Shown here: positions 26,818 through 46,074 of the stretch, piece by piece
Layout of the letters: the number at the start of each line of letters is the position of its first letter
Numbering within the stretch: the stretch's first letter is position 1
Assembly: GCF_008728635.1 (NCBI RefSeq)
Contig: NZ_CP044285.1
Span: 4,278,001-4,342,000, forward strand
Reading direction: 5' to 3'
From: Hymenobacter baengnokdamensis
GTDB taxonomy: Bacteria; Bacteroidota; Bacteroidia; Cytophagales; Hymenobacteraceae
DNA length: 64,000 nucleotides
Made by a program: the position numbers and the translations under genes
The notes under the pieces: model-generated
Databases searched by the model: none
Told to the model about the DNA's origin: nothing
The model's input: only the letters and a program-made list of their open reading frames with translations

Positions 26818-27357
26818 ATGATACGTTACCGTCTTCAGCTAAGCCTGCTGGCCGCCCTGCTGGGCCTGAGCCAGTGTAAGAAAAGCAGTCCCGACCCCGA
26901 AGACCAGTTGCCGCCCGCTACCCAGACCGGCGCCAACACCTTCGGCTGCCTCGTCAATGGCCAGCCCTGGACCCCACAAGGCTATAATGGCACTTCTAAT
27001 TATAGTGTCGTGTATGATTCCGGAGTTCAAAATGGACTCCTTGATATACAAAGTTATTGCTATCCTACAGGAATCAATAAGCCTCAGAGCATCGCCGTTA
27101 TCTCAGGACACATTACGAAAATTGGTACGTATTCTTTAAGCAGTCCTCAAATAGCCACGGCTAACTATACAGATTATAATTCTTCTTGCTACTGGAGCAG
27201 CCGAGACAGCGCTACTACTTATCGGCGGGGCACCTTGACCATTACCCGTCTGGATTTGCAGGCCGGCATCATCGCGGGCACGTTCGCTTTTACCCTCTAC
27301 AAACCCGGCTGCGACAGCGTGCGCGTCACCCAGGGCCGCTTTGATAAAAAGCTCTGA
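26818..27357 (+). CDS. small lipoprotein, member of a locally repeated family
   Basis: 179 residues with a lipobox (L-L-G-L-S-Q-C near residue 20), then C-K-K-S-S-P-D-P. The mature part begins with T-F-G-C-L-V-N-G-Q-P-W-T-P and ends with I-I-A-G-T-F-A-F-T and V-T-Q-G-R-F-D-K-K-L. This head and tail are characteristic of a Bacteroidetes family of secreted beta-sandwich lipoproteins (DUF6252-like, assignment from memory). Function is unknown. The middle part is lower in GC than the ends. A decayed duplicate lies at 27652-28021 and a third relic at 55033-55358. It is transcribed against the flanking envelope cluster and has its own promoter, as expected for a later insertion. Confidence 0.75.
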   Translation: MIRYRLQLSLLAALLGLSQCKKSSPDPEDQLPPATQTGANTFGCLVNGQPWTPQGYNGTSNYSVVYDSGVQNGLLDIQSYCYPTGINKPQSIAVISGHITKIGTYSLSSPQIATANYTDYNSSCYWSSRDSATTYRRGTLTITRLDLQAGIIAGTFAFTLYKPGCDSVRVTQGRFDKKL

Positions 27358-27390
27358 TGCTCTCCCTTTTCCTCTTTTCCTTTTCCTGCC

Positions 27391-27597
27391 ATGAAAAAAC
27401 GCTGTACCTACCTGCTGGCCTGGCTCCTACTGGCCACCCCCGCCCTGGCCCAAACCCCCGACCCCGTACGCCTCAAGCTCGACGCTGTCTTCGCCAACCT
27501 CGATAAAAGCCAGGTGCCCACCGGCCGCCTGCTCGAAGCTGCTGTGCCCCTCGGGCCTAATACTGTTGCAGAAGTAAAACTCAATATCGTTGTTTAG
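27391..27597 (+). pseudogene. truncated secreted-protein gene (N-terminal remnant)
   Basis: 68 residues: signal peptide (cut near A-L-A-Q, residue 21) and L-D-A-V-F-A-N-L-D-K-S-Q-V-P-T-G-R-L. From memory, this stretch opens much longer secreted proteins of Hymenobacter-type genomes, so the body of the gene seems lost; the last ten residues (V-A-E-V-K-L-N-I-V-V) come from unrelated AT-rich DNA. It might still encode a short secreted peptide. It lies between an intact lipoprotein gene and its decayed copy, suggesting several rounds of recombination here. Confidence 0.5.
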
Positions 27598-27651
27598 TAA
27601 AGTTAAACTTTTCTTTTTGTGCATTTCGCAAACCCTTACCCCCTCTTCCTC

Positions 27652-28021
27652 ATGTGCATACCCCCTACCTGCCTGCTGGTTGCCCTGCTGGGCCTAAGCC
27701 AGTGTAAGAAAAGTAACCCCGACCCCGTGGACCAGCTGCCGGCTGCCGCCCGCTACCCAGACCGCTGCCGGCACCTTCGGCTGTTTGCTCAATGGCCAGC
27801 CCTAGACTCCACAGGGCTATGATGGCCATCCTAACTTCATCACTACCTATGATGCTGGTTATCTAGGCGGAGCATTGCAGATTAAATGCTACCGCTACCC
27901 CTCCAATGGCAACCAGCAGGGGTTGACCTTCGGGGCCGCCAATGTTAAGCAGGTTAGTACCTATTTATTTTCTACTACTGGAGTTAATGGCCTAAGCTAT
28001 TCAGATAATGAAGCTGTTTAG
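27652..28021 (+). pseudogene. decayed duplicate of the lipoprotein gene at 26818
   Basis: The first 25 codons (lipobox L-L-G-L-S-Q-C, then K-K-S-N-P-D-P-V-D-Q-L-P) match the gene at 26818. An extra C near 27747 shifts the frame; in the shifted frame the reading A-T-Q-T-A-A-G-T-F-G-C-L-L-N-G-Q-P continues the match, but the next codon, Trp in the intact copy, is the stop TAG (near 27805). Similarity resumes with T-P-Q-G-Y-D-G and continues to S-T-Y-L-F-S-T-T. The gene then stops inside the palindromic repeat at 28010, whose GAAGCTGTTTAG gives the final codons and stop; the C-terminal third is missing. So it carries three lesions: a frameshift, a nonsense codon and truncation at a repeat. Confidence 0.85.
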
Positions 28022-28118
28022 GAAGTCAAAAATCCAATCCTGAACGTCATGCTTCGACAAGCGGACGCCAGATGAGCATGACGTTTTTTTAGTTGCCGGA
28101 TACTTTCTGAACAGGTTC
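28010..28118. repeat. palindromic extragenic element, copy 1
   Basis: Outer ends GAAGCTGTTTAGGAAGT (28010-28026) and TTTCTGAACAGGTTC (about 28104-28118) are imperfectly complementary; the inner part GAACGTCATGCTTCGACAAGC faces GATGAGCATGACGTT. The layout matches the copies at 40542-40630 and 45959-46074. This copy forms the 3' boundary of the lipoprotein pseudogene. Confidence 0.8.
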
Positions 28119-38559: not shown

Positions 38560-39549
38560 TCACTTCTCCCGCTCTATCGTGTAGTTAATCAGCGTTTCGA
38601 GCGAGTTACGGGCTTCTGATTCCGGGAACTCGCGCAGGATGGCCAGCGCCTCATCGCGGTAGCGCTCCATGGTGCGGATGGCGTAATCCAGGCCGCCCGA
38701 CTGCTTCACGAAGTCGATTACCTGCTGCACGCGGTCGCGGTGGCCGGCGTTGTTTTTCACGTTGTAGATAACGCGGCGCTTGTCGAGCCAGCTGGCCTGC
38801 TGCAAGGCGTAGATGAGCGGCAGCGTCATCTTTTTCTCCTTGATGTCGATGCCCACCGGCTTGCCGATTTCGGCCGTGCCGTAGTCAAACAGGTCGTCCT
38901 TTATCTGGAAGGCCATGCCCACTTTCTCGCCAAAGAGCCGGGCTTTTTCGATGGTGGCCTTGTCGGCGCCGGCCGCCGCCGCGCCCACGGCCGTGCAGGA
39001 GGCGATGAGCGAGGCCGTTTTCTGGCGGATGATGTCGAAATATACCTCTTCTGTAATATCCAGCCGGCGGGCTTTTTCAATTTGCAGCAGCTCGCCCTCG
39101 CTCAGCTCGCGCACGGCGTTGCTCACAATCTTGAGCAGGTCGAAGTCGTCGTTTTCGAGCGAGAGCAGCAGGCCCCTACTCAGCAGGTAATCGCCCACGA
39201 GCACGGCTATCTTGTTCTTCCACAGGGCATTGATGGAGAAGAAGCCGCGCCGGTAGTTGCTCTCGTCCACTACGTCGTCGTGCACCAGCGTGGCCGTGTG
39301 CAGCAGCTCGATGAGCGCCGCGCCCCGAAACACGGCCTCGGGCAGCGGGCCGGCCGGGTTGGCGCTGCTGGCGCGGGCCGTCAGAAACACGAACATGGGC
39401 CGCACCTGCTTGCCTTTGCGGCGCACGATGTAGCCCATAATCTTATCGAGCAGCAGCACCCTGGTTTGCATCGACTGCCGGAATTTTACTTCAAACTCGG
39501 CCATTTCGGCCGCGATAGGAGCTTGAATTCGGTCGAGCGGATTTGCCAT
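38560..39549 (-). CDS. polyprenyl diphosphate synthase (long chain)
   Basis: 329 residues. Both Asp-rich motifs are present: V-H-D-D-V-V-D-E-S near residue 90 and Q-I-K-D-D-L-F-D-Y-G near residue 215, with K-I-A-V-L-V-G-D-Y-L-L between them. The enzyme adds isopentenyl units to an allylic diphosphate; residues before the first motif suggest a long product such as the menaquinone side chain (octaprenyl or heptaprenyl). G-K-Q-V-R-P is the substrate loop. Cytoplasmic. It diverges from the alpha/beta hydrolase. Confidence 0.9.
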   Translation of the reverse strand: MANPLDRIQAPIAAEMAEFEVKFRQSMQTRVLLLDKIMGYIVRRKGKQVRPMFVFLTARASSANPAGPLPEAVFRGAALIELLHTATLVHDDVVDESNYRRGFFSINALWKNKIAVLVGDYLLSRGLLLSLENDDFDLLKIVSNAVRELSEGELLQIEKARRLDITEEVYFDIIRQKTASLIASCTAVGAAAAGADKATIEKARLFGEKVGMAFQIKDDLFDYGTAEIGKPVGIDIKEKKMTLPLIYALQQASWLDKRRVIYNVKNNAGHRDRVQQVIDFVKQSGGLDYAIRTMERYRDEALAILREFPESEARNSLETLINYTIEREK

Positions 39550-39641
39550 GCGGGCGCAATGATACGGCCAGTAGCGCGGACTTTACCGTCTGCCGGCCCC
39601 TTCGCAAACGCGGACTACCGAGTCGGCACTACCTTAGCCGC

Positions 39642-40553
39642 ATGCTCCGTACTGTCGAGTTCCTGCTCACCGGCCGCGCCCACGGCCGCCCGTTTGCCGC
39701 CGATGCCACCTGGCAGCCCACCGGCCACCCCCAGCCAGTAGTAGTGTTCGTGCACGGTTTCAAGGGGTTTAAGGATTGGGGGCACTTCGGCCTGCTGGCC
39801 CGCTTCTTCGCTGAAAAAGGCTTCGTCTTCGTCAAGCTCAACCTCTCGCACAACGGCGTGGTAGTGGGCGGCACCGGCGATTTGGAAGACCTGGAGGCGT
39901 TCGGCCGCAATAATTTCAGCCTGGAGCTCGACGACCTGGGCCAGCTGCTCGATGCGCTGCACACGCCCGGCGCCACGCCCCTACCCGCCGAGTCCCTCAA
40001 CCTAAGCCGGCTTTTCCTGGTGGGCCACAGCCGGGGCGGCGCCCTGGTGCTGCTCAAAGCGGCCGAAGACCCGCGCGTGGCGGCCGTGGCTACCTGGGCG
40101 GCCGTGGCCGACCTGCACCCCCGCTGGCCCGCCGAAGTACTGGCCCAATGGCAGCGCGACGGCGTGCTCTACGTGCCCAACACCCGCACCGGCCAGCAGC
40201 TACCCATGTACTACCAGATTGCCGAGGATTTTTATAAAAACCGCGCCCGCCTCGACCTGCCGGCGCTCATGCCGGGCCTGCGCCAGCCAGTGCTGCTCAT
40301 CCACGGCGACCAGGACGAAACCGTGCCCCTGGCGGCCGTGCACCAGCTACACGCCGCCCAGCCCCGCGCCGAGGTATTCGTGGTGCCCGGCGCCGGGCAC
40401 ATGTTCGGCGGGGCGCACCCCTGGGCGGGCCCGGAGCTTCCCGCCCCAGCCCGGCTTATTGCGGAGCAAACGGCAAGGTTTTTTGAATTGAAAATTAAAA
40501 GTGACGAATTAAAAACTGGGGATGTACCGCCGGAGCATGCCGAAGCTGCTTAG
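39642..40553 (+). CDS. alpha/beta hydrolase (serine esterase/peptidase-like)
   Basis: 303 residues from the ATG at 39642; the frame is open back to 39543, but that would overlap the divergent gene. Motifs: V-F-V-H-G-F-K-G-F-K-D-W-G (oxyanion region), V-G-H-S-R-G-G-A (nucleophile Ser), H-G-D-Q-D-E-T-V-P (acid Asp) and G-A-G-H-M-F (His). Substrate unknown. The last residues are odd: E-L-K-I-K-S-D-E-L-K is the translation of an AT-rich repeat, and the stop TAG lies inside the palindromic element beginning at 40542, so the natural C-terminus has probably been rewritten by repeat insertions. Confidence 0.85.
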   Translation: MLRTVEFLLTGRAHGRPFAADATWQPTGHPQPVVVFVHGFKGFKDWGHFGLLARFFAEKGFVFVKLNLSHNGVVVGGTGDLEDLEAFGRNNFSLELDDLGQLLDALHTPGATPLPAESLNLSRLFLVGHSRGGALVLLKAAEDPRVAAVATWAAVADLHPRWPAEVLAQWQRDGVLYVPNTRTGQQLPMYYQIAEDFYKNRARLDLPALMPGLRQPVLLIHGDQDETVPLAAVHQLHAAQPRAEVFVVPGAGHMFGGAHPWAGPELPAPARLIAEQTARFFELKIKSDELKTGDVPPEHAEAA

Positions 40554-40630
40554 GAAGTTGTCGAAAATAAAAAAGAACGTCATGCTGAGCTTGTCGAAGC
40601 ATAACGTTCTCGCACATCCCAAACAGCCTC
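40542..40630. repeat. palindromic extragenic element, copy 2
   Basis: Outer ends GAAGCTGCTTAGGAAGT (40542-40558) and CCCAAACAGCCTC (40618-40630); inner part GAACGTCATGCTGAGCTTGT facing AAGCATAACGTTC. It supplies the stop codon of the hydrolase upstream and an in-frame ATG (40582) upstream of folK. An AT-rich repeat (TTGAATTGAAAATTAAAAGT, from 40483) lies just before it. Confidence 0.85.
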
Positions 40631-43363: not shown

Positions 43364-43485
43364 GAGCGAATTCTGGGTCAGCATACGGGTTCTGTTCTTG
43401 CGTTCGCCTCACCCCCGGCCCCCTCTCCGAAAAGGAGAGGGGGAGCCATTATGGCAAAAAACGTACACTGACCCAGAATCCGCTT
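43364..43485. mobile_element. 122-bp MITE with IS630-like ends and TA duplication
   Basis: Terminal inverted repeats of about 18 bases: GAGCGAATTCTGGGTCAG at the left and the complement of AAGCGGATTCTGGGTCAG at the right, three mismatches (two at the outer end). TA flanks both ends (43362-43363 and 43486-43487), the target duplication of IS630/Tc1-mariner elements. The left end TAGAGC-ATTC-TCAG resembles the left end of the IS630 element at 44946 (TAGAGCAGATTCGTAATCAG). Inside is a hairpin GGCCCCCTCTCC/GGAGAGGGGGAGCC. No gene inside. It interrupts the toxin gene that resumes at 43487. Confidence 0.75.
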
Positions 43486-43486
43486 T

Positions 43487-44343
43487 AACTTCAACGACCC
43501 GGCTGGCGATGAACCGAATCCCTTGCCGAAGACGTACGCTGAAGCCGTAGACCAAATGTATGGCGCGGGCTGGTATGAACAGAATGGGCGGGGAGGTACC
43601 AATGCCGATTTCTATGGTACCAGTGCCTTTGGGCCGGCAATGGGTACTTACAACCCCGGCACCTCAATCGGGCCAAACTGGGCGGATGCAGAAAAGTATC
43701 AAGAAGCCAAAGCCATGGGCCTTAATCCGTCCTATGATGCCCGAGGCACGTTGCAAGTGCAGCCCTTATTTGTCTTACGTATTTATAACGGCTGGGGGCT
43801 CAGCGGTATCATCTGGTATCCCCGAGACTTCCATCTATCCCCCCTCAACCCACTAGGTATGGATGCATCCCCTTGGGGGGGCAAGCGGATGATGGGACTT
43901 ATTCCCAACAGCGTTCGGGGTTTGATATACTAGCTGCCGTAAAAGAATTGAATCAAAATGCAGATATATTAACTGCAAAATTGGTTGCGTCGGGTGAAAA
44001 GCCATACGGTATAGGAAGGTGTGCAGCATATGTTCGACAAGCTCTCAAAGTGGGAGGAATTGACACTAATTCTCATCCTCGTTCGGCAAAAAATTATGGT
44101 CCTTATTTACTAGGGTGGGGATTTCATGTGGTAACTTCCAATACCGAATCCAGTGGCTACTCACCTATGCGTGGAGATATTGCGGTGTTTAAGGGGTTCG
44201 GTACTGACCCTAATGGTACGTGGAACGGGCATATCCAAATGTACAACGGTAACCAATGGGTGTCTGATTTTAAGCAAAACCTTATTACACCAGGGCCTAG
44301 CTACCGCACGCCGCCTGATCCTTACATTATTTACCGTTGGTAA
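43487..44343 (+). pseudogene. truncated and frameshifted toxin with CHAP/NlpC-like amidase domain
   Basis: Two overlapping frames belong to one protein. The first (open from the MITE edge, R-F-N-F-N-D-P-A-G-D-E-P onward, to 43933) and the second (to 44343) meet at a run of seven G at 43875-43881; one extra G, or a -1 slip, joins S-P-W-G to G-Q-A-D-D-G. The joined product is about 285 residues. Its C-terminal half shows a papain-like amidase pattern: G-R-C-A-A-Y-V-R-Q-A-L (Cys), M-R-G-D-I-A-V-F, N-G-H-I-Q-M-Y (His) and W-V-S-D-F-K-Q. Such domains cut peptidoglycan in secreted effectors. No start is left because the MITE replaced the N-terminus. The next gene looks like its immunity protein. 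Confidence 0.65.
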
Positions 44344-44408
44344 AAAGACTAAAAAACAACATTTTTTGTTATGTTTACATTTAATCCTGAATTAACGATA
44401 CGATTCAC

Positions 44409-44858
44409 ATGAAAGCTAAGTTTCTCATTGTCTTGATAATAGTTGGCTTTATATTTCAAGCCAATTATAGCCTTGTTCAGGCACAGAGCACCGTTTATGA
44501 TAAGCAGATACTCACTATGTTAAAAGAATTTTATACAGCTTATATAACAGAATCATCAAAATCGCCTGCCATTAACAACTTAGATAAGATTTTTGCTCTT
44601 CAGAAAAAATCTTGTACTGTTGGTCTTTCGAATAAAATAAACGCTCAATTGAAGAGCGGGCAATTAGAAGCTGACCCTTTTTTGCAAGCTCAAGATATTG
44701 ATATTTCGTGGCTTAAGACTTTGTCTTTTATGAAAGATTTAAGGAGACAAAATGGGTATATTGTCTCTTATTTTGATTCTGAAGCGAATGAAAAGGTTGT
44801 CATACATCTGACTGTAATTAGGCAAGATGGAAAGTTTAAAATATCGGATTATAAATAG
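44409..44858 (+). CDS. secreted protein, probable immunity factor for the amidase toxin
   Basis: 149 residues, very AT-rich. A signal peptide (M-K-A-K-F-L-I-V-L-I-I-V-G-F-I-F, cut near V-Q-A-Q) sends it to the periplasm. The mature part (L-K-E-F-Y-T-A-Y-I-T-E, then D-P-F-L-Q-A-Q-D-I-D and K-F-K-I-S-D-Y) resembles DUF3828-type proteins, which from memory occur as immunity partners of peptidoglycan amidases. Periplasmic location is where protection from a wall-cutting toxin is needed. It starts 65 bases after the toxin frame. The pairing is inferred. Confidence 0.65.
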   Translation: MKAKFLIVLIIVGFIFQANYSLVQAQSTVYDKQILTMLKEFYTAYITESSKSPAINNLDKIFALQKKSCTVGLSNKINAQLKSGQLEADPFLQAQDIDISWLKTLSFMKDLRRQNGYIVSYFDSEANEKVVIHLTVIRQDGKFKISDYK

Positions 44859-44945
44859 TCTTAATACTAAATACATTTATTCAATTATATTTTTTATGCA
44901 ATATATGCATGTAAGTGAATTTGCTGCTTTTTCAACTAGCAACTA

Positions 44946-45956
44946 GAGCAGATTCGTAATCAGGGTACGTGATAGCCACAATGGTCAAACCAGTTTTGCG
45001 CATCCTCGGCCGTAATCCAGGTCAGCGCCGCTTGCCAGGCGCTTGTCAGGGCCTGGCGGGTGCGGGCGGCGGCGGTGCGCAAGTGGGTTTTGAGCTTGCT
45101 GAAGGCCAATTCGATGGGCGTAAAATCCGGCGAGTACGGGGGTAGGTACAGCAGCCGCGCGCCGCGGGCTTCCACCACCTCGGCCAGCCCCTGCGCCTTA
45201 TGCACCGGCAGATTATCCAGTACGACTACGTCGCCCGGCTGCAAGCCCGGCCCGAGCACCTGCTCCAGGTACACGGCAAAGCTGGCCGTGTTCACGGCGC
45301 CCTCCAGTTCCATGACCGCCTCCATGCCCTGGGCCGAGAGGGCCGCTACCACTGTCACGTTGGGGCCGTTGTGCAAGGGTACGGCCGCGTCCACCCGCTG
45401 TCCGCCTGGGGCGCGGCCATAGCGGCGGGTATAGGTCAGATTGACACTCGTCTCATCCACGAACTTGAAACGGGTAACGTCTTCGTGTTGAATAGCTTCC
45501 ACAAACTCCCGGCGCAGCGCCTTCACCCGCTCGGTGTCGCGCTCGGCGGCGTGCAGACTCTTTTTTTGCGCCGTAAATCGAGTTGTTGCAACGTCTGCCA
45601 GCGCACGGTCTGCCCCACGGCGGGGCTACCGGCGGCCACCAGCTGCTGGCGCAACTCGGCCAGCGTCGCGTCGGGCTGGGCAGCTACGCAAGCCACCAGG
45701 CGCTGGCGGTCCGCTTCTTGCAGGCGGGGTGCGGGCCCGCCCCGGTGGGGCAGCGCCGCGACCGAGCCGCGCGTGCGCTGGCGTTTGAGTAGCTTATCTA
45801 CGAACGAAATGGAAACGGCAAAGCGGCTGGCTACCTGGCCAATCGTGACCTCCCCGGTCGCGTAGGCGGCCACGACGCGCTCACGCAAATCAATGGAATA
45901 CGCTTGCATAGCGAAAGCTACATCAAAAAAACTGTACAACAGACCCGAAACCGCTC
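44946..45956 (-). mobile_element. IS630-family insertion sequence
   Basis: About 1.01 kb. The ends are GAGCAGATTCG at the left and the complement of GAGCGGTTTCG at the right, both next to TA (44944-44945 and 45957-45958), the IS630 target duplication. It contains a two-frame DDE transposase on the minus strand. The right end touches the palindromic repeat that starts at 45959. Confidence 0.85.
44960..45909 (-). CDS. IS630 transposase, two frames joined by -1 frameshift
   Basis: Frame 1 (45909 down to 45523) starts M-Q-A-Y-S-I-D-L-R-E-R-V-V and carries the helix-turn-helix (E-V-T-I-G-Q-V-A-S-R-F-A-V-S). Frame 2 (to 44960) carries the DDE triad: F-V-D-E-T-S-V-N, V-V-L-D-N-L-P-V-H-K and F-T-P-I-E-L-A-F-S-K. 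A run of seven A near 45561-45567 (minus strand C-G-C then A7 then GAG) lets ribosomes slip back one base; the shifted reading R-K-K-K-S-L-H-A-A-E-R-D-T-E-R-V then runs straight into frame 2. This is the usual arrangement of the family, so the element may be active. The fused protein is about 316 residues. Confidence 0.88.
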
Positions 45957-45958
45957 TA

Positions 45959-46074
45959 GAAGCTGTCTAGGAAATATGAGAACGTCATGCTGAGCCTGTC
46001 GAAGCGATGGAGATGCTTCGACAGGCTCAGCATGACGTTCAAAAGGATTTCTGGCTAACTTCCTAAACAGCTTC
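45959..46074. repeat. palindromic extragenic element, copy 3 (most complete)
   Basis: 116 bp. Outer arms GAAGCTGTCTAGGAAAT (45959-45975) and ACTTCCTAAACAGCTTC (46058-46074) are nearly complementary; inner arms GAACGTCATGCTGAGCCTGT (45980-45999) and onward and the complement ending near 46040 are perfect (GAACGTCATGCTGAGCCTGT/CGAAGC with ATGCTTCG...CATGACGTTC). It lies just past the fabD stop codon and could end its transcript. Confidence 0.9.

Follow-up and report, generated by a model that had tools for sequence, protein, structure and literature searches.

Short elements with IS5-type ends around CGTC-REP-like palindromes in the genome of Hymenobacter baengnokdamensis

Palindromic elements at the locus

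The window, a 64,000-nucleotide stretch of the H. baengnokdamensis contig NZ_CP044285.1, contains three short palindromic elements, whose features are as follows (for the grounds on which they are called putative MITEs, see below).

28010..28118, no strand: 109-bp putative MITE, second copy, flanked by aat and agt
28042..28086, no strand: inner palindrome of the 28010 copy, a variant core
40542..40630, no strand: 89-bp putative MITE, third copy, right end decayed, flanked by gcc and tct
40575..40609, no strand: inner palindrome of the 40542 copy, a short 35-bp form with one REP-like unit
45959..46074, no strand: 116-bp putative MITE, best copy, IS5-type ends round a REP-like dimer, flanked by cta and cca with no exact 3-bp duplication
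45959..45975, plus strand: left terminal inverted repeat, 17-mer match with 1 mismatch
45980..46040, no strand: CGTC-tagged REP-like head-to-head dimer, arms 45980-46005 and 46015-46040 complementary at 26 of 26 positions
46058..46074, minus strand: right terminal inverted repeat, perfect 17-mer match

The original prediction described three copies with shared outer inverted ends, and this was confirmed. At up to 3 mismatches the outer 17-mer matches the window 6 times, against 0.49 expected, and these matches are both ends of the three copies; none of 100 shuffled windows gave 6 or more. At the left end the 28010 and 40542 copies match the 17-mer perfectly, and at the right end each shows 3 mismatches. 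The inner palindrome, GAACGTCATGCT, which had likewise been assigned to all three copies, is present in each of them, but the full two-armed dimer is confined to the 45959 copy. As predicted, that copy is the best of the three and folds strongly as DNA (-42.5 kcal/mol, z -11.6). The z-scores of the 28010-28118 and 40542-40630 copies are -3.4 and -2.2, respectively, and the fold of the latter was matched by 3 of 200 shuffles. None of the three copies has an exact 3-bp duplication. An Rfam scan of the window at gathering scores returned one tRNA.

Hymenobacter sp. BRD67 (NZ_CP053904.1) is 98.5-99% identical to the window over several kb and 94% identical in another stretch; judged by this identity, the two genomes are close relatives. 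The sites of the 45959 and 40542 copies are also occupied in BRD67, and the site of the third gave no verdict. Both subterminal stretches of the 28010 copy are shared with a BRD67 composite (L210) that has a TGC duplication; when the flanks of that composite were sought in the genome under study, the right flank alone was found.

Several features of the surroundings were also recorded. The 40542 copy provides the stop codon (TAG in its left end, 40551-40553) of an alpha/beta hydrolase frame at 39543-40553. Directly abutting the left end of the 116-bp element is a stretch of about 2.6 kb (43364-45957) that lies between TA dinucleotides, holds an IS630-family transposase gene in pieces and is missing at the same place in BRD67. 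A DUF6252 gene (26818-27834) just before the 28010 element is accompanied by a decayed second copy of its own start, in stretches of 81 and 96 bp with 82-84% identity.

Outer ends and an IS5-family insertion sequence

The genome under study (G000; 4.43 Mb, one contig) contains 46 matches to the 17-mer at up to 2 mismatches, versus 3 for the reversed pattern. These resolve into 38 elements, 32 of which have a partner end at a loose limit of 6 mismatches, a form of pairing that may yield false partners. The original prediction had named fewer than about five copies, or ends that were not conserved, as its own refutation; copy number and ends both came out in its favor. Among 39 genomes, the 17-mer was present at up to 1 mismatch in 23, many of them with 1 or 2 matches, the same as the control. 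At least 4 such matches were found in 13 of the 39, every one of them Hymenobacter. Many 17-mers of one genome (G016) lie close to contig ends, the pattern expected of a repeated IS.

An IS5-family element of 932-935 bp, found in BRD67 and other Hymenobacter (G012, G019 and G024), has the 17-mer as its terminal inverted repeat. All 13 full-length copies examined have an exact 3-bp target duplication, and 11 of the 13 have perfect 17-bp ends on both sides. The encoded protein belongs to the IS5 family (NCBIfam NF033580, 135 bits at a cut-off of 110), with which Pfam agrees; a comparison of the transposase with solved structures found no relative at E 0.001. One full-length copy (L152) has a stop within the gene, and two shorter remnants (L158 and L159) are without the 3-bp duplication. 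In another genus, a relative of the IS (L172, 919 bp) is bounded by similar ends and flanked by an ACT duplication. At E 1e-20 the IS5 protein was present in 11 of the 39 genomes. In the genome under study, IS remnants only and no intact IS were found: the protein search returned one fragment of 76 residues, at a threshold where weaker fragments may be missed, and a second remnant is an IS reduced to 261 bp by internal deletion, whose ends are perfect and flanked by an ATT duplication. Genome G001 has 125 ends, with the IS present only as a fragment.

Target duplications were scored in 41 distinct end pairs of 36-330 bp, less the BRD67 orthologue of a window copy and the IS remnant, which left 39. 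An exact 3-bp duplication was found in 15 of the 39 and a longer one in none. Shuffling gave a mean of 1.6 and a maximum of 7 in 10,000 trials, and of 24 out-of-register offsets 23 gave 0-2 matches and one gave 5. In the genome under study alone, an exact duplication is present in 6 of 32 paired elements and in none of the three window copies, so that most copies there look old. The short elements share the ends of the IS and its 3-bp duplication, and on these shared features, together with the unfilled sites described below, they are best read as IS5-family MITEs.

The inner palindrome and other cores

The inner motif GAACGTCATGCTGAGC occurs at 139 sites in the genome under study at up to 2 mismatches, versus 8 for the reversed control. 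The 116-bp element has matches in all 16 genus members compared, largely over its inner part, and in four of these (G007, G006, G003 and G010) the outer end is matched at most once at up to 1 mismatch. The inner palindrome is a separate family, more abundant than the outer frame and common also where the 17-mer is nearly missing. What had been described as one element consists of two families, a CGTC-REP-like core nested in an IS5-type frame. The earlier REP-like label holds for the inner part; as a REP or BIME identity of the whole element it is not supported, the outer ends being those of the IS5 family.

In a sample of 28 dimers from the genome under study, enriched for framed ones by the way it was selected, 6 have both outer ends, another 3 combine a good end with a decayed one, and in 19 no match is closer than the control range. 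At the BRD67 sites of ten standalone dimers, extra DNA lies between the flanks in all ten (97-122 bp in six and 37-45 bp in four, with the sequence known for one) and no site is empty. As all ten are occupied, standalone dimers look old and fixed; framed ones have moved. A candidate autonomous element bounded by inner palindromes at G000:75450-77892 was dropped because its two ends look like separate dimers.

The arms of the 45959 core, like those of standalone copies, bear an unpaired CGTC tag in the form GAACGTC, and the dimers mostly have their tags outside (head to head), as in CGTC REPs. By reading, the putative unit stem is ATGCTGAG/CGAAGCAT, with a 5-nt loop and two mismatches of the G-A type. 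This stem was missing from the fold predicted for one unit, and the fold of a variant gave the outer part of it. The usual unit ends in a CTC tail, which departs from the CCA expected of CGTC REPs. On the strength of the tag, a stem that opens with AT as read, and the tags-outside arrangement, the core resembles head-to-head dimers of CGTC-tagged REPs.

The frame also surrounds other cores. A rough sorting by motif of the 38 elements gave 11 with a CGTC-type palindrome, 17 with a GGCAGCC-type one and 10 with neither, one of these being an IS remnant. Between the same outer ends lie a TGTC-tagged dimer of GTCATCCTGAGC in L072, AGACGC dimers with a GTAG tag in L081 and L082, these tags being named by reading, and an untagged palindrome of the GGCAGCC type. 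One frame (L002) is only 42 bp long, with 8 bp between its ends; the existence of such a short frame makes insertion of cores into short MITEs possible.

Movement, rival explanations and known systems

Nine elements of the genome under study were compared with their sites in BRD67. The 40542 copy and L190 were filled there, and L029 was precisely absent, with one AGT remaining. The other six (L007, L019, L021, L023, L024 and L030) gave no verdict; for L019 the left flank was not found, and L030 was missing but imprecisely so. Eight composites were also sought as unfilled sites in 120 genus genomes, using the best 3 candidates per genome, so that misses carry little weight, and the search was informative for L221 only. 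This CGTC composite of G009 is absent in G078, where the alignment crosses the junction without a gap (about 75% identity), and also in G006, with a length difference nearby; uninterrupted copies of the repeat that hosts it were found in three other genomes. Empty sites, the search for which had been proposed as a check, were found in relatives for L029 and L221, alongside the window copies filled in BRD67. Two composites of G013 (L201 and L216) share 93% identity and lie between unrelated flanks, and a G012 pair (L088 and L215) shares 83% identity, each member having an exact duplication of its own. Such near-identical composites at unrelated sites show that the REP dimer moves with the frame. 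The spacer between the REP arms is in opposite orientation in L201:1501-1650 and L216:1501-1651, as if flipped. The repeat into which L221 is inserted is a further one of about 100 bp, with GTGAGTTGGTGAGATAGTG inverted arms, seen also in L333, L336 and L338.

We consider that the short elements are IS5-type MITEs, some with REP-like cargo, and that their probable mover is a transposase acting in trans (probability about 0.88). At the sequence level this is backed by shared ends, shared 3-bp duplications, unfilled sites and near-identical composites at unrelated sites. An IS5 transposase supplied in trans, which we infer to be the enzyme that moves the elements, would recognize the 17-bp GAAGCTGTTTAGGAAGT ends and move whatever sits between them, duplicating 3 bp of target. 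The cargo in 11 of the 38 elements is a CGTC-tagged REP-like palindrome, typically a head-to-head dimer, which otherwise stands alone. REP dimers may have entered the frame by insertion into a short MITE or by capture, and the copies in the genome under study may now be idle for lack of an intact IS. Points against this reading are the missing exact duplications of the window copies and of most paired elements in this genome, their absence at L158 and L159, the one out-of-register offset with 5 matches, the chance of false partners, and the 125 ends of G001 beside an IS fragment only. The prediction of mobile, non-coding palindromic DNA with conserved outer ends and an unlinked transposase was borne out in this form.

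The mover originally suggested, a Y1 (RAYT) transposase acting on REP or BIME elements, is very unlikely, even though the core is REP-like and the genome under study has two Y1 genes (L134:1576-2473 and L133:1595-2597, near 2.333 and 2.717 Mb), each flanked by palindromic repeats. Those repeats, GTAGCGTGGACTCGCAGAGTCC at one gene and ACTGGCGCGAGTTTAGGCGAAGCCGTAACTCGTGCC at the other, are different sequences from those of the elements, and the two genes with their own repeats are likely true REP/RAYT systems of this genome. The inner motif adjoins neither gene. Across the flanks of 44 Y1 loci from the 39 genomes (one gene counted twice), the outer end was matched 6 times at 4 mismatches, against 9 matches at 2-4 mismatches for the reversed control, so the 4-mismatch end about 260 bp upstream of the L133 gene is at chance level. 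The inner 12-mer appeared at 2 of the 44 loci (control 0), at a distance of about 2 kb, or about 1.2 kb in L135, and not adjacent to the gene. With neither motif enriched round these genes, linkage of the elements to RAYT is not supported; a RAYT mover would also leave the 3-bp duplications and the IS5-family (DDE) ends unexplained.

Overlap of two unrelated repeats, with a REP palindrome that functions as a terminator or mRNA stabilizer and outer ends that are passive leftovers, is an improbable reading as well. It would fit the far greater number of standalone than framed palindromes, the occupation of all ten standalone sites in BRD67, as expected of stable or useful sequence, and the position of the window copies at gene ends. 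However, the same ends are found round cores of several kinds, together with matching duplications and unfilled sites, which makes the frame a unit of movement; an RNA role after insertion is still compatible with this. Chance similarity of short inverted repeats, already refuted by the window shuffles (0 of 100) and the genome-wide counts (46 versus 3), has a negligible probability.

Putative IS5-type MITEs with such cargo have partial counterparts elsewhere. The IS5-family MITEs of Porphyromonas gingivalis (BrickBuilt, MITE239/293, MITE700 and MITEPgRS; PMC4596501), in the same phylum, are likewise non-coding, with ends that match IS5-family elements of their genome. They differ in their ends (a 12-bp class), in their inconsistent duplications and in the minisatellite inside BrickBuilt, and the available text reports no REP dimer core such as that of the Hymenobacter elements. 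QMITE2 of Coxiella burnetii (PMC5896051), found mainly in 3' untranslated and intergenic regions, is also a MITE containing a REP; its REP is of the GTAG type and its duplications are 7-11 nt, in contrast to the CGTC-type core, 3-bp duplication and IS5-family partner here. REPINs (PMC3116915) similarly have two inverted REP arms able to fold into one long hairpin, but here no Y1 gene flanked by the repeat was found, and the presumed mover is a DDE enzyme acting on the outer ends. Before nested palindromes are named REPINs, frame and core should accordingly be told apart.

CGTC REPs have been reported from five phyla with no mover known (Di Nocera et al. 2013, PMC3733652); according to that source they "apparently lack a dedicated transposase" and show no association with transposase genes. 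They are described there with an 8-9 bp stem beginning with AT, a 4-5 nt loop and tails most, not all, of which fit CCA. The core here is alike in its CGTC tag, in dimers with the tags outside, in the absence of Y1 association and, by reading, in a stem that opens with AT; it is unlike in its CTC tail. For H. neapolitanus (CGTC-1 dimers) and A. variabilis (many GTAG-15 dimers), that source also describes a position within longer palindromes; unlike the cases described there, the outer palindrome here is identified as transposon ends, which come with target duplications and have an autonomous partner. Among the titles listed in searches of the open-access literature, none dealt with Hymenobacter MITEs or IS5-borne CGTC REPs.

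In Hymenobacter, the CGTC-type dimer is cargo between identified IS5-family ends, with duplications, unfilled sites and repeated composites, and a repeat believed to lack its own mover may be carried along between the ends of a transposon. With a single transposase and a substrate of about 150 bp, the question of what moves CGTC REPs becomes testable. We tentatively raise the idea, somewhat short of even odds, that IS5-family MITE frames are general vehicles for REP dimers, a DDE-transposase route for repeats without their own transposase; if true, it would answer the 2013 question for one genus. Nested mobile elements were also seen in a 224-bp framed element of BRD67 (L170:1142-1365), which has a further palindrome holding GGGTCAGTGTACG like that at 43364-43490 of the window.
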